This document shows, in pieces, positions 3,565-31,240 of a stretch of DNA of 36,050 nt. The stretch covers positions 1 through 36,050 of the forward strand of contig JAIPUR010000027.1 in NCBI GenBank assembly GCA_020055655.1, given 5' to 3'. The notes below the pieces were generated by a model that was not told the origin of the DNA, searched no databases, and saw only the letters and a list, made by a program, of their open reading frames with translations. The position numbers and the translations under genes were made by a program. Position 1 is the first letter of the stretch, and each line of letters opens with the position of its first letter. Origin of the DNA: Methanosarcinaceae archaeon (GTDB taxonomy: Archaea > Halobacteriota > Methanosarcinia > Methanosarcinales > Methanosarcinaceae).

Positions 3565-4149
3565 GTGCAGAAGTATAAGAATTTCTGGCGGCTCATCGTA
3601 ACCTTGATAAAAAAGAAGGACGTTTTTTTTAGTGCGTCTGCCATCACCTTTAACCTGTTTATTTGTGCCATTCCCTTTATTCTGCTGATGATCTCTATCA
3701 TTGGTTATGTGCTCTCATATGAAGAGGCTTTTGCCGAAATTGTCCGCTATGGACAAGAGCTCTTCCCCAGCTTCACCTATGAATCAGAGTCCGGAGATGT
3801 GTATCGCGGCGCAATAACGCTCGAGTCGCTGCTGAACCCGCTGGTAGGGGCGCGCCAAATTTTTGGCATCATCGGTACCGTAATCCTGATATTCTTTTCA
3901 CTGGGATTTTTCCACAGTCTCAAACATGTCATTTTCGATATTTTTGAAATTGAAGATCGGCGGCATCCCATTCTCGAAATGGTCTACAACTTTTTCACTT
4001 TTGGATTAGTGGGAGGCGTCTTTCTTTTTTTCAGTCTAGCCATTTCGCTGCTATCCATCTTCTCTTTTGATCAGATTTCACTGCCCTATACCGAGATGGT
4101 ATTTCAGCTTTCATGGATATACGACCTGCTTAACCTGATCATTCCTATT
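3565..4149 (+). CDS. YihY/UPF0761-type membrane protein, 5' part only (bacterial)
   Basis: About 195 residues of a polytopic membrane protein. It has [19 protein letters not shown] near the N-terminus (compare the A-x-x-F and P-F/L motif of the YihY/virulence factor BrkB family), a soluble loop, and helices around residues 95-125 and 140-170. The last helix reads into I-I-P-I-I-F, after which the frame becomes prolyl-tRNA synthetase with no stop between. The true C-terminus is missing. The GTG at 3565 is used as start for want of an in-frame ATG, so it is uncertain. The gene is divergent from mutS, with 112 bases between them. The end given is approximate, since the junction lies within about 4141-4158. 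Confidence 0.72.
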
Positions 4150-4689
4150 ATATTCAAAGATTCAGGTGAGGTCCTTGAAGCATGTGAGAATGTAATGGCT
4201 CTGCTCGAAGGTGCAGGCATACGTGTGAAGATGGATGCAAGTGAAGGTCGTCCTGGTGCTAAGTACTATAAATGGGAGATGAAAGGTGTTCCTGTGAGGC
4301 TTGAGCTTGGCCCACGTGATCTTAAGAACAACGCAGCTATGCTTGCACGCCGTGATACTGGTGAGAAATCCCAGTTCTCTCTTGACAATATCAAGGATGA
4401 GGTTCTCTCTTTGCTGGATGCTGTGCAGGATGGCCTTTACAACAAAGCAAAAGATGAGCTGGAAGCACGTATATTTGATTGCTCAGATCTTGATGATGTA
4501 AAAGAGAAAACATCAAACGGTATCGCTCGTGTTTTCTGGTGCGGCGACAAGGGGTGTGGCCTGAAGCTCGAGGGGGAGATCGGTGCAGGTATTCTTGGAA
4601 TACCTACTGAACAGAATAATAGTTTTGGTAAATGTCCTGTATGTGGTGCAGATTCTGATACTCAGGTATACGTCGCCAGAACCTATTGA
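4150..4689 (+). CDS. proS: Prolyl-tRNA synthetase, C-terminal part only (archaeal)
   Basis: The last ~180 residues of an archaeal/eukaryal-type ProRS, the enzyme that charges tRNA-Pro. The anticodon-binding domain is clear: EVLEACENV, then [20 protein letters not shown] and ARRDTGEK. The C-terminal zinc domain of this ProRS class follows, with four cysteines (C-x4-C, then KCPVCG) and the characteristic terminal tyrosine. The catalytic domain with class II motifs is absent, because the frame upstream is a bacterial membrane protein fused in phase. A complete enzyme is about 480 residues. cobT follows after 53 bases. The 5' limit is approximate. This segment marks the beginning of the archaeal part of the window. 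Confidence 0.9.
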
Positions 4690-6431: not shown

Positions 6432-7202
6432 ATGCAGAATAAAGATAAAGTACTCATTGTTGATGATGAAGTGGCTATTGTGGAGTTGATGGGACTCTAT
6501 CTTAAGTCTGATTATGAAATTCTCACTGCATATAATGGTCAGGAGGCACTTGATAAGGTCAAGTCCGATAAGCCTGATATAATTCTTCTTGATGTAATGA
6601 TGCCTGATATGAACGGGTATGAAGTTTGTCGTATTCTTAAAACATCAGTTGAAACCCAGTTCCTTCCTGTGATAATGGTTACTGCTCTTTCTGGCAAAGA
6701 TGATCGTATCAAAGGTATTGAAGTTGGTGCAGATGAATTCCTTGGTAAGCCAGTTAACAGGCTTGAATTAGTTACCAGGGTCAAGTCATTACTGCGAATC
6801 AAACACTTACAAGATAAGGTGTTGGCTGAAAGGAACGAGGTCATGAATTATTTTGATATTGCTAACTTTGCAATGATTGTGGTCGATGCTGATCTTCGGA
6901 TACATCTGGTTAACAAGAAATGTAATGACCTTTTTGGATTTGATGAATTTGAACTGATAGGTCGTGATCTTATGACGGCCCTTCTTGCGCCTGAGTGTCG
7001 TGAAGTTGTTAAGGAAAACCTTCAATCTGTAATCTCCGGTGTCAATGATGTTTCTACATTTGCAGAGCGTATAATTGTCTGTAAGGATGGTACTGAACTC
7101 TCTGTAAGGTGGTTTGATGCATTGTTGAAGGATTCAGAGGGTAATGTAACAGGAATGGTACTTTCCGGTCAGAATCTTAGTAGCTGTTATGGCGGGGAGT
7201 AA
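6432..7202 (+). CDS. Response regulator with receiver and PAS domains
   Basis: A 256-residue soluble signalling protein. Residues 5-120 form a receiver domain, with the acidic pair D11-D12, the phosphoacceptor D54 in ILLDVMMPD, a Thr in VMVTALSG near 84, and the Lys of LGKPV near 106. Residues about 138-250 form a PAS domain (FDIANFAMIVVDADLRIHLV, then KDGTELSVRWFDALL). There is no DNA-binding or kinase output domain, so the PAS domain may sense a ligand or serve as a protein contact. It stands alone: the nearest genes are tRNA-Trp upstream and a decayed gene downstream, and the partner histidine kinase is not in the window. The start ATG at 6432 follows AGGGAG by about nine bases. Confidence 0.85.
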   Translation: MQNKDKVLIVDDEVAIVELMGLYLKSDYEILTAYNGQEALDKVKSDKPDIILLDVMMPDMNGYEVCRILKTSVETQFLPVIMVTALSGKDDRIKGIEVGADEFLGKPVNRLELVTRVKSLLRIKHLQDKVLAERNEVMNYFDIANFAMIVVDADLRIHLVNKKCNDLFGFDEFELIGRDLMTALLAPECREVVKENLQSVISGVNDVSTFAERIIVCKDGTELSVRWFDALLKDSEGNVTGMVLSGQNLSSCYGGE

Positions 7203-7293
7203 TTCATTAATTTTCCCTTATTATCTATTGTTTCATATATGTTGCAGGAATTCTCTTCGCTTTTTCTTTTCAGTAAACTTGCTGTAACGCAAA

Positions 7294-7523
7294 TTATCCA
7301 TTTTTATGCAGAATCACATGCATTCCAATTGTTAGCAAAATGCTGGCCTTGTTGTGTATTAGTGTCCAAAGGGCCTTTATAATTCCCATATACTCCTGGT
7401 ATCTTCCACGTGATACCCTCTCTGGTATAAATAAATAGATAAAGAATCCTGTAAATGCAACTATTAGAAAAAGTAATGTTATGATTATGTCGATAAAAAA
7501 TAATTTAACTTTGTTTTATTCAT
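7294..7523 (-). pseudogene. DUF4405-like small membrane protein, frameshifted
   Basis: On the minus strand an ATG at 7523-7521 begins MNKTKLNYF, then runs out of frame in a six-base A/T run (7495-7500). In the shifted frame the reading continues as FIDIIITLLFLIVAFTGFF, IYLFIPERV, GRYQEYMGIIKALWTLIHN and SILLTIGMHVILH to a TAA at 7296-7294. One extra T in the run would restore a single frame of about 76 residues. The two hydrophobic helices, the P-E-x-V loop and the histidines resemble DUF4405 proteins, which are small membrane proteins suspected to bind haem. The last helix looks shortened. It may be a true pseudogene or a homopolymer sequencing error. Confidence 0.6.
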
Positions 7524-7690
7524 CTGATTTTGTATATGCATATTTGTGATTTTAAATATTTGCAATTTTCTATGCATCAAAAAGGTTTAAATCATATTAC
7601 TCGGTAGTACACCTGTTTCATTATCGGGATATGTCCCGTGGGAATGTAGCTTTTTGAAAGTTGAACCGTGAAACAATAAAATGAAACTAG
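7524..7690 (+). promoter_or_regulatory. Promoter region of the rpl15e operon
   Basis: The sequence AAAAAGGTTTAAATC (about 7579-7593) reads as BRE plus TATA box and would give a transcript starting near 7615. The leader of about 85 nt contains GGGATATGTCCC (7626-7637), which can form a short hairpin. The ribosome site AGGTGA lies at 7689-7694. I see no gene on either strand between the DUF4405 remnant and rpl15e. Confidence 0.5.
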
Positions 7691-26789: not shown

Positions 26790-29411
26790 ATGGATATTGA
26801 TCGTTTTACTCAGAAAGCCCAGGAGGCCATACAAAGTTCCACTACAATCGCAGCAAGGTACAGCAACCAGCAGATCGAATGTGAACATCTTTTCCTTGCA
26901 CTTATTGAACAAAGTGGTGGTTTAGTTCCTACTTTACTTTCAAATATGGATGTTTCCGCAGATCATTTTATTCAAAAAGTTGGATCTTACTTAAATGGGC
27001 TTCCAAAAGTTTCAGGTCCTGGTGGAGAGCAGGTCTATATGACTCAGACTATGAGGCGTGTTCTTGACTCAGCTGTACAGGAAGCCGGAAAAATGCAGGA
27101 TGAATATGTTAGTGTTGAACATCTTCTTCTTGCCATTATCGATGAAAGCTCTTGTGAATCAGGCAAGATGCTTGCAAGTGAGGGAGTTACAAGAGACAGG
27201 CTCCTACAGGCTATCAAACAAATAAGGGGGAATAGAAGAATTACTTCAGATAATCCGGAAGATACTATGGAACCTCTCAAGAAATATGGTATCGACTTTA
27301 CGGAACTGGCATCACAGGGTAAACTCGATCCTGTGATCGGTAGGGACGCAGAGATCAGGCATGCAATTGAGATCCTTACCCGACGCAGAAAGAATAACCC
27401 TGTGCTCATTGGTGAGGCTGGTGTTGGTAAAACGGCTATTGTTGAAGGACTTGCACAGCGTATTGCAAAGAGGGATATGCCTGAAGCAATGAAAGATAAG
27501 CGTATCATAGCTCTTGATATGGGTGCACTTGTCGCAGGTGCGAAATTCAGGGGTGAATTCGAGGAGAGATTAAAGGCAGTACTCAAGGAAGTTTCTGATT
27601 CTGAAGGCCAGATAATTCTGTTCATAGATGAACTCCATACCATTGTGGGTGCAGGCGCCACAGAAGGTGCAATGGATGCGGGAAACCTGCTAAAGCCAAT
27701 GCTTGCACGTGGTGAACTACATTGTATTGGTGCTACTACTCTTGATGAGTATCGTAAGTATATTGAAAAGGATGCTGCACTTGAACGCCGTTTTCTTCCT
27801 GTTAATGTGGAGCAACCAACAGTGGAAGATACTATTTCCATATTGCGTGGACTGAAAGAAAAATATGAGGTCCACCACGGTGTTCGCTTGAAGGATTCCT
27901 CACTTGTGGCTGCAGCTGTCATGAGTAATCGTTATATTGCAGACCGTTTCCTTCCAGATAAGGCTATAGACCTTGTGGATGAGGCTGCTGCAAAGAAAAG
28001 GACTGCTATTGACAGTAAACCTGCTGAACTTGATGAGGCTGACCGTAAGATCATGCAGCTTGAGATCGAGCGTGAGGCATTGAAGAAGGAAACGGATGCA
28101 GCTTCAAAGGAAAGACTTTCCGACCTTGAAAAGGAACTTGCAGACATCAGGGCTGAATCTGATGCCATGCGTGCAAGATGGGATATGGAAAAAGAGGTCA
28201 TTTCAAAACTTGGTGCTCTCAAAGAGGAAATGGAAGATACAAAGGTTCAATTGGAACTTGCTGAGAATGACAATAATCTTGAACTTGCATCAAAGTTGAA
28301 ATACGGTACACTCATTCCACTTCAACATCATTATGCCGAAGAAGAAAATCGCCTAAAGGATATGCAGGGTGAGATGCTCCTCAATGAGGAGGTGGGAGAA
28401 GAGGATATTGCAGAAGTTGTCAGCCACTGGACTCGTATCCCTGTGACTCGTTTGCTTGAAGGACAGCGTGAGAAGCTAATGCACTTTGAGGAAAATCTTC
28501 ATAATCGTATCATTGGGCAGGATGAGGCAGTAAAAGCTGTGGCAGATGCTGTTATTCGTAATTATGCCGGAATCAAGGACCCCAAGCGCCCAATTGGTAG
28601 TTTTATATTCCTTGGTCCTACCGGTGTTGGTAAAACAGAACTTGTAAAGGCACTGGCTGCTGAAATGTTCGATGATGAAAGCAATATGGTTCGGATCGAT
28701 ATGTCTGAGTATATGGAAAAGCATACTGTTGCACGTATGATCGGTGCTCCTCCTGGTTACATCGGACATGATGAAGGAGGGCAGCTTACAGAGGCAGTCC
28801 GCAGGAGGCCCTATTCAGTTGTTCTCTTCGATGAGATCGAAAAAGCACATCCTGATGTGTTCAATATCATGCTTCAGATACTTGATGATGGCAGACTGAC
28901 GGATTCCAAAGGCAGGACTGTGGATTTCAAGAACACTCTGATCATCATGACCTCTAATATATTTGCAGGTGATATAACTGAGGTTCTAATGGAGCAAGGT
29001 GGCGGTGACCTTGATTATTATCAACTTCAGCTTCAGGCGTTGGATGAGCTTGCCAAATATTTCAAGCCCGAATTCCTGAATCGTATTGATGAAGTTGCAT
29101 TGTTCCATGCACTAAAGCCGGAACAACTGGCACACATAGTTGATATTAAAGCTGCCGATCTTATTGAGAGGCTGAAAGGAAAGAGGATCCATCTTGAAAT
29201 AACTGATGATGCCAAAGTCTACCTTGGAACTATGGGTTACAGTGAAACCTTCGGTGCAAGGCCACTTAAAAGAGTAATTCAGAATGAGGTTGAAACCCTG
29301 ATCGCCAAATATATAGTTGCAGGTGAGATTCCTGAAGGGTCTACAGTGCTGGTCGGGTTTGATGGAGAGAATATTTCCGTCACAGTTGAAGAAAAGCTAA
29401 CTGACAATTAA
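26790..29411 (+). CDS. clpB: ATP-dependent chaperone ClpB
   Basis: 873 residues, full length. The Clp_N domain covers 1-145 ([13 protein letters not shown] at the start, two repeats). AAA-1 begins near 155, with Walker [14 protein letters not shown] near 210 and the FIDELHT Walker B. The coiled-coil middle domain that marks ClpB runs about 405-525. AAA-2 has [15 protein letters not shown] near 610, [14 protein letters not shown], and the sensor-2 [11 protein letters not shown]. ClpB pulls proteins out of aggregates with DnaK. Among archaea it is mostly found in methanogens and halophiles, probably by old transfer from bacteria. Its ribosome site AAAGGAGGT is very strong. A terminator follows the stop. 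Confidence 0.97.
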
Positions 29412-29470: not shown

Positions 29471-31141
29471 TTATATGCCAAAGGCCATTCTGATAAGTAC
29501 TAACAATCCGAAAAAGAGATTTAGGGCTAAGAGTCCGCCAACTACCATTGCTCCAAGCTTGATATATTTTGTATCAAAGTCGAGGATCGAAAGGGCATTG
29601 CTGATGGAATCCATGGTATCGTTTGCTTTTGAAACGGTTCCCTGTGCTTCCTCAAGCGTTGCATTAACATTGTCCAGAACCTTATCGATACGTGGTTGTT
29701 CCTCTGTCCTGACATTTTTGAGGACTCCGTGCATTTCATCCAGTGTTTTAGGAATGATGCCTGGAGTTTCTTCCCATCTGTTTGCCAGTTTTTCATATTT
29801 TCTTTCAAGTTTCAACCCTTTTCTGAAGTAGAAGACCTTTTGTGCATTCATAAGGTCGAAACTTCTTTGGTATCCATCGAACTTAGTGCTTACAGATGCA
29901 GATATCTTCGCTCCGTGTGGCTGTATTGCCATCTTGGAAAATGCCGGCAGATTATTTATGGCAAAATTATTTTTAGAAATATTAGCAATTGCCGATACGT
30001 CTGATGCTCTAGCTCTTATTCTGTTATCTGATGAAATAGTTGTAGTGTCAGGTTGATTTGCAGATATATTTCTGTCAGTTTCTATATTAGCTGAAGTTTC
30101 CGTTCTTCTTCTTTCAGCAATTACATCTGCAATGTTTATAGTTCTTGGAGTATCGATATCTCTTTCAACACTGATATTTCTGTCAGAATCAGTAGGTTCT
30201 CTGACTCTAATGTCATCTCTGCTGTCACGTATGGTATCTCGTATATCATCGCGTACGGTATCACCAATATCCTCCCGCACAATTCCACCAACATCAGGAG
30301 TTTCAAGATCAAGATCCTTGATGTTAAGTCCTGCCATTGCAACAGAGCTATTACTTATCTCAAATTCATTCGCAGGGAACGTCTTTATTACATCTGCAAA
30401 TTGGGCAGTGATGGGTTCCTTTCTCTCAATAAGGCCTGCATAATATTGCTTATTGTTCTGTATCAGATTTAGATGATCCTGTATCGATGGGCTAAGTTCC
30501 GCTATTGATATGGGTATCTTCTTCTTGACAACAAAAAGCTTCTTTGCTTCCTGTAGAACTTCCTCGCTGACATCCAGATTATCGTCCAGGGAATCCAGAA
30601 TGTCCTCTATCATCGGTTGCTCGATGGTATTGAAGCGTTCAAGTGTCTCTTTAGCGTTGTAGATGGTATTTGTCAGAACTCCAGGTTCCTGGTAATATAT
30701 GTCGTGAATCTCTTTTTTTACAGCAGCAAGCCTTGCCATAAGCTCGAAATTTTCGATAACATCTTCAAAATCAGATAGGATGTCCCAGAAGTTGAAGTTA
30801 AAGTTGCCGGTATTATCGATACCGTTGTCTTTTAGTTTGTCTTCGAGCCTTTTCTTTTCAGCTCTCAGAGCTTTTAGTCTGTCTTTTTCTTCATCCCAGA
30901 GATCATCTTCACTTCTTGGTGTCAGCCTTTTTATTGTTAGCAGTTCCTCAGCTTCCTGCAGTGTGGATTCCAATTGTTCTCCAAGAGATTGCAATGTGGA
31001 TCCAATCACTGCAATTGCCAGACCTGCCTCTTCTGCAGCACCTCCAACATCATCTGCTGCGTTACCTGCCTGATAGATTGCTTTTCCAGCGGTGTACAAA
31101 CCGCCTGTAGCAACACCCAAAACTACGTCATACCATGCCAT
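29471..31141 (-). CDS. Membrane-anchored helical protein with internal duplication, unknown function
   Basis: 556 residues; I do not recognise a family. Residues 5-50 are weakly hydrophobic and rich in Ala and Gly. Residues 55-110 form a charged coiled coil. Two similar modules follow at about 145-200 and 452-507: each has P-G, then exactly 23 residues from that proline to the proline of T-x-E-Q-P, then I-x-x-(I/V)-L-D. Between them, residues 287-360 are disordered and rich in Arg and Asp (RDDIRDTIRDSRDDIR). A single hydrophobic helix ends the protein (residues 529-555), so it is probably tail-anchored with the bulk in the cytoplasm. The ATG at 31141 has a strong GGAGAGGAGA site. A TrmB-type regulator lies upstream on the same strand. 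Confidence 0.8.
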   Translation of the reverse strand: MAWYDVVLGVATGGLYTAGKAIYQAGNAADDVGGAAEEAGLAIAVIGSTLQSLGEQLESTLQEAEELLTIKRLTPRSEDDLWDEEKDRLKALRAEKKRLEDKLKDNGIDNTGNFNFNFWDILSDFEDVIENFELMARLAAVKKEIHDIYYQEPGVLTNTIYNAKETLERFNTIEQPMIEDILDSLDDNLDVSEEVLQEAKKLFVVKKKIPISIAELSPSIQDHLNLIQNNKQYYAGLIERKEPITAQFADVIKTFPANEFEISNSSVAMAGLNIKDLDLETPDVGGIVREDIGDTVRDDIRDTIRDSRDDIRVREPTDSDRNISVERDIDTPRTINIADVIAERRRTETSANIETDRNISANQPDTTTISSDNRIRARASDVSAIANISKNNFAINNLPAFSKMAIQPHGAKISASVSTKFDGYQRSFDLMNAQKVFYFRKGLKLERKYEKLANRWEETPGIIPKTLDEMHGVLKNVRTEEQPRIDKVLDNVNATLEEAQGTVSKANDTMDSISNALSILDFDTKYIKLGAMVVGGLLALNLFFGLLVLIRMAFGI

Positions 31142-31240
31142 ATTCTCTCCTCTCCTTTTTTGCCACATGATGGGGGATATTTGTTTCTAGTTTCACTTCT
31201 TCATGTATTTTGCATCACTAGATAGTACCCTTTCACTCCC

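Follow-up and report, generated by a model that had tools for sequence, protein, structure and literature searches.

A conserved tail-anchored protein of methane-producing archaea containing two copies of a proline-marked helical module

In this work, we present a computational analysis of a 556-residue protein, which is a real, conserved and previously undescribed protein of methane-producing archaea. It is built on an old helical module marked by prolines and present twice, and the two copies differ in a way that was previously unreported: the first is fixed in length, while the side of the second grows in tandem 33-residue units. We consider it possible, with a probability of roughly 40%, that this single gene encodes a non-enzymatic helical scaffold or tether which is anchored by its tail in the cytoplasmic membrane and carries an adjustable stalk.

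The gene and the regions of its product

The window, i.e. the whole analysed stretch of DNA of 36,050 nucleotides, is part of contig 19 of a 2.48-Mb genome. The initial annotation placed the gene at 29471-31141, and these coordinates proved correct, the gene being encoded on the minus strand. Its ATG start codon (M) at 31141 is preceded by a ribosome-binding site (GGAGAGGAGAGAAT-ATG), homologues align from this start, and the stop codon occupies 29471-29473. A longer open reading frame of 565 aa with a start at 31168 was rejected as the gene start, because this position is not conserved among homologues. Searches of the own genome gave no paralogues at E up to 10. The gene and the regions of its product are listed below.

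29471..31141, minus strand: whole gene, 556 aa, stop codon included (open frame, full-length homologues in many genomes)
30917..31141, minus strand: residues 1-75, conserved Ala/Gly-rich N-terminal region, MxWxDVVxGVxTGGLYxxGKxxYxAGxAA...
30812..30916, minus strand: residues 76-110, helix with LWDEE motif in the better-predicted core (35 aa in every member, pLDDT 69-82)
30533..30694, minus strand: residues 150-203, module 1 (EPG...RFNTxEQP...IxxILDS), most conserved part, length constant
30356..30532, minus strand: residues 204-262, predicted strand 1 (204-210) and core helix (218-254), pLDDT up to 83
29930..30355, minus strand: residues 263-404, variable linker, Arg-Asp-Ile-rich at about 285-352, pLDDT mostly 26-40
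29759..29929, minus strand: residues 405-461, QP-x-GA motif, predicted core helix (409-453) and strand 2 (454-460), conserved in homologues
29612..29773, minus strand: residues 457-510, module 2 (TPG...VRTEEQPRID...LDN), profile match to module 1
29492..29554, minus strand: residues 530-550, single transmembrane helix (19-residue windows with hydropathy of 2.3-2.7), then RxAxG and the C-terminus, ending conserved in the family

The N-terminal region measures 72-79 aa across the family, with a mean top-residue frequency of 0.79, and it probably forms two helices, predicted by AlphaFold at low confidence at residues 2-31 and 36-68. The linker between the halves is 52-208 aa long in relatives and has a mean top-residue frequency of only 0.27. 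Its Arg-Asp segment had been described as a disordered-looking repeat; the linker does look disordered, but the repeat is not conserved and represents one version of a variable stretch.

Profile searches of Pfam, NCBIfam, PHROG, PADLOC and PDB gave no family matching the 556-aa protein, in agreement with the initial annotation, which recognised none. There was no match to solved structures by sequence, no Pfam match to PspA/Vipp1/ESCRT-III, and a literature search found no paper on the protein. Several Pfam coiled-coil families (DUF948, DUF1664, Laminin_II, YPEB_N), helical like the 556-aa protein, matched weakly, DUF948 in the module 2 stretch, but all remained far under the curated cut-offs and share no common module with it. 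DUF948 (PF06103) reached 15.5 bits, under the Pfam cut-off of 37.2 bits, and matched at E 0.05 in only 2 of 9 members, and the best-matching coiled-coil family varies from member to member. A phage or plasmid origin was rejected, as no match was obtained among phages, plasmids and viral contigs. Close matches with named loci occur in Methanolobus, Methanococcoides and Methanohalophilus, which marks the analysed genome as one of Methanosarcinaceae type. These uncharacterised Methanosarcinaceae proteins belong to the same full-length family (about 47-66% identity, same spacing and tail), but their linker is longer or shorter, and up to two additional 33-aa units are present on their module 2 side.

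Duplication and unequal evolution of the modules

A gap-free alignment at an offset of 307 pairs residues 145-200 with 452-507; of its 56 positions, 13 are identical and 31 score as positives. The best ungapped off-diagonal score was 70, whereas 300 global shuffles never exceeded 50 and 300 local shuffles never exceeded 60, and this score rises to 115-118 in more distant homologues. When family profiles of the N- and C-terminal halves were compared, 151-200 matched 458-507 with a probability of 97.8% and E 9.4e-13. The old duplication proposed from the single sequence was confirmed. In the distant archaeal member L103, module 1 is EPGVLPTTIYNVKEVIERFNTIEQPKIEDILDSVDDNL and module 2 is EPGVIPKTLANFEDILKRFNTEEQPRIEAILDSVNDNL. 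The proline-to-proline distance of 23 residues, noticed in the initial annotation, recurs in 39/39 copies of module 1 and in 27/27 copies of module 2, the latter count covering only the sequences in which a simple pattern finds this module. The offset of 307, by comparison, is true of the 556-aa protein and is not general, since the QP-to-QP distance ranges from 220 to 431 in relatives.

The two copies evolved unequally. Module 1 is exactly 54 aa long in all 38 full-length rows of the alignment and shows the highest conservation of all regions (mean top-residue frequency 0.86). The module 2 side, by contrast, consists of two parts which vary between 22 and 88 aa and between 36 and 97 aa among relatives. 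Added length on this side is mostly composed of tandem 33-residue units, EEQPRIDxLLDNLNxxVPxTLEELxxVLxxVRT, which show in several relatives as consecutive QP motifs 33 residues apart; other step sizes occur occasionally (29 in L017, 22 in L102). As these additions sit between the core and the membrane anchor, the pattern is the one expected of a stalk of variable length.

Membrane tail and predicted structure

The best 19-residue hydropathy windows begin at residues 529-538, with a peak of 2.7 at the tail versus only 1.1 in the N-terminal part. The tail is 34-35 residues long in every member, and nearly all members end with K-x-G...GGLxVLxLxxGLIVLxRxAxG and one further residue, which upholds the earlier assignment of the C-terminal helix as the anchor. 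The N-terminus has no basic start and its acidic residue 5 is invariant in one of the alignments, so it does not appear to resemble a signal peptide, and the remainder of the protein would thus be cytoplasmic. With a lone membrane helix lying within about 30 residues of its C-terminal end, and an N-terminus that is not signal-like, the protein is similar to tail-anchored membrane proteins (Get3 clients), a topological class rather than a family, to which it is assigned by sequence features.

Two AlphaFold runs were carried out, for the 556-aa protein and for its Anaerolineae homologue L038; the two are about 38% identical and were modelled with the same nine sequences. Overall confidence was low (pLDDT 45.8 and 45.9, pTM 0.26-0.27). 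Better-predicted elements common to both models are the helices at about 78-105, 125-150, 218-254 and 409-453 (556-aa numbering), strand 1 and its core helix included. The strands 204-210 and 454-460 are likewise present in both, and as each model contains only these two, they must pair, joining the halves in one chain. This suggests that in the predicted fold the halves meet via their flanks rather than via the modules, which are low-confidence parts of both models (pLDDT 30-40). Within the modules, helix breaks fall at matching positions, 172/174 and 480/482, which in models of such low confidence is weakly consistent with duplication. A fold search with the low-confidence model gave no match to solved structures below E 0.5, and Foldseek listed Vipp1 only at E above 5.

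Distribution, gene neighbourhood and possible function

Among near genomes, 23 of 60 carry a relative; in the class the count is 46 of 238 genomes, and in a draw from the phylum it is 38 of 393, four more distant archaea being among the last. In Anaerolineae they are rare (1/396 genomes in one survey and 2 clear cases in 201 genomes in another). The Chloroflexota copies cluster in the tree with archaeal copies from outside Methanosarcinaceae, so it is likely, judging by this grouping, that the gene moved between anaerobes, in either direction. Binning error was rejected as a source of the Anaerolineae copies, because genes of bacterial appearance lie on their contigs and L038 and L105 have neighbours in common; these copies are probably genuine. 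One metagenome-assembled genome labelled Methanohalophilus (L032) has a copy which clusters within those of Methanococcoides type, away from the remaining g8 copies, the result of either transfer or a mislabelled bin. In a distant archaeal genome (L104, about 7190-7540, minus strand) we noticed a decayed copy, in which the membrane tail and about 60 residues from the N-terminus persist mutually out of frame and the middle is lost.

A neighbouring gene in the window is the following.

26790..29411, plus strand: clpB, convergent neighbour, adjoining the gene in genus carriers and not in other genera

The gene lies tail-to-tail with clpB in all genus carriers whose neighbourhood was read, and hsp20, groEL and groES often come next beyond clpB. 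Upstream, the genus has a gene of a TrmB-type regulator or, in one subgroup, other genes. In eight genus genomes the gene is missing: seven of them have clpB directly after the TrmB gene, and the eighth has other genes at this position. The best clpB tree implies at least six changes of presence, and well-supported branches force three of these. This agrees with repeated loss of an ancestral gene, the alternative being its regain at an unchanged position. Outside the genus the gene neighbours differ. A survey of companion genes, advised in the initial annotation, thus found clpB adjoining within the genus but no conserved partner gene beyond it. A partnership with ClpB was rejected on these grounds, and clpB is a stable address within the genus and probably not a functional partner. 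The upstream block of the gene is conserved, which suggests a promoter of its own. In the subgroup L052-L055 a conserved inverted-repeat-like block, about TGTGTGAAAAACATACACA, precedes the start and could be an operator.

In the scaffold or tether that we propose, all but the C-terminal membrane helix would lie in the cytoplasm. The two halves would fold back on each other via the flanking helices and the strand pair into one core, module 1 would be the constant face that contacts a partner or mediates self-assembly, and the repeats of module 2 would form a helical stalk, the length of which sets the distance between core and membrane. The duplication, repeats and tail come from sequence and core formation from low-confidence models, while contact, stalk and tether are what we infer. 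In favour of this reading are the invariant tail, the duplication, the fixed module 1 versus the variable module 2 side with its tandem 33-aa steps, the core elements that recur in both AlphaFold models (from a shared sequence set), and profile searches which gave no catalytic family. Against it stand the pLDDT of 46, in both cases from the same nine sequences, and the finding of no conserved partner gene outside the genus; absence from eight genus genomes also indicates that the gene is dispensable. It is rather doubtful, though conceivable, that the proteins constitute an undescribed archaeal membrane-tether family with an invariant docking module and a repeat stalk, in which species tune the reach by 33-residue units.

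A membrane-active effector, which would make its own cell permeable during stress or viral attack when the core opens and the Gly/Ala-rich hydrophobic N-terminus inserts, as in HeLo/MLKL-type or Bax-type proteins, is an unlikely alternative. The N-terminus is indeed conserved and hydrophobic, presence is scattered at one fixed site across the genus, and one full protein matched SesA at E 0.11 and MLKL_N at E 0.21, both under the cut-off and the latter not in the N-terminal part. However, the N-terminal domains of ten members scanned alone gave no SesA, HeLo or MLKL match, PADLOC gave none for the 556-aa protein and only weak ZorA coil matches in two members, and no defence genes were recognised beside the gene. 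Nearly all genomes of the Methanococcoides group retain it, unlike a typical defence gene. A glycine zipper in the N-terminus was rejected as well, since small residues at i,i+4 are no commoner than in shuffles (p 0.2-0.5), i.e. than composition gives.

We regard it as quite improbable that the protein is a membrane-bound stress or chaperone adaptor working with the neighbouring ClpB, Hsp20 and GroEL. The described arrangement beside clpB and the chaperone genes speaks for it, but a convergent gene with its own conserved upstream region does not belong to the clpB operon, other neighbours are found outside the genus, and the clpB group is intact where the gene is missing. The least credible option is a tether or fusion protein of SNARE-like layout bridging two membranes through a tail anchor, a helical membrane-proximal stretch and a folded N-terminal part, for although the tail anchor does lie beside a long helical stretch and the N-terminus might make a second membrane contact, Pfam SNARE/syntaxin profiles gave no match (Sec20 in 2 of 9 members, E 0.043 at best) and sequence analysis gave no sign of internal membranes in the host organisms.

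The family is conserved, unmatched in the libraries searched and present in cultured methanogens, e.g. Methanococcoides strains, and a natural experiment is available in close relatives that either carry or lack the gene at one and the same position. If the stalk part of the scaffold or tether reading is true, the protein would be a simple archaeal example of repeat number setting a membrane distance.

Elsewhere in the window, one open frame at 3565-4689 (plus strand) begins as a YihY/BrkB-type membrane protein and ends as the C-terminal portion of prolyl-tRNA synthetase. As another ProRS C-terminal domain lies on contig 16, in a 492-aa frame, a deletion may have fused two genes here, or the join may stem from the assembly.
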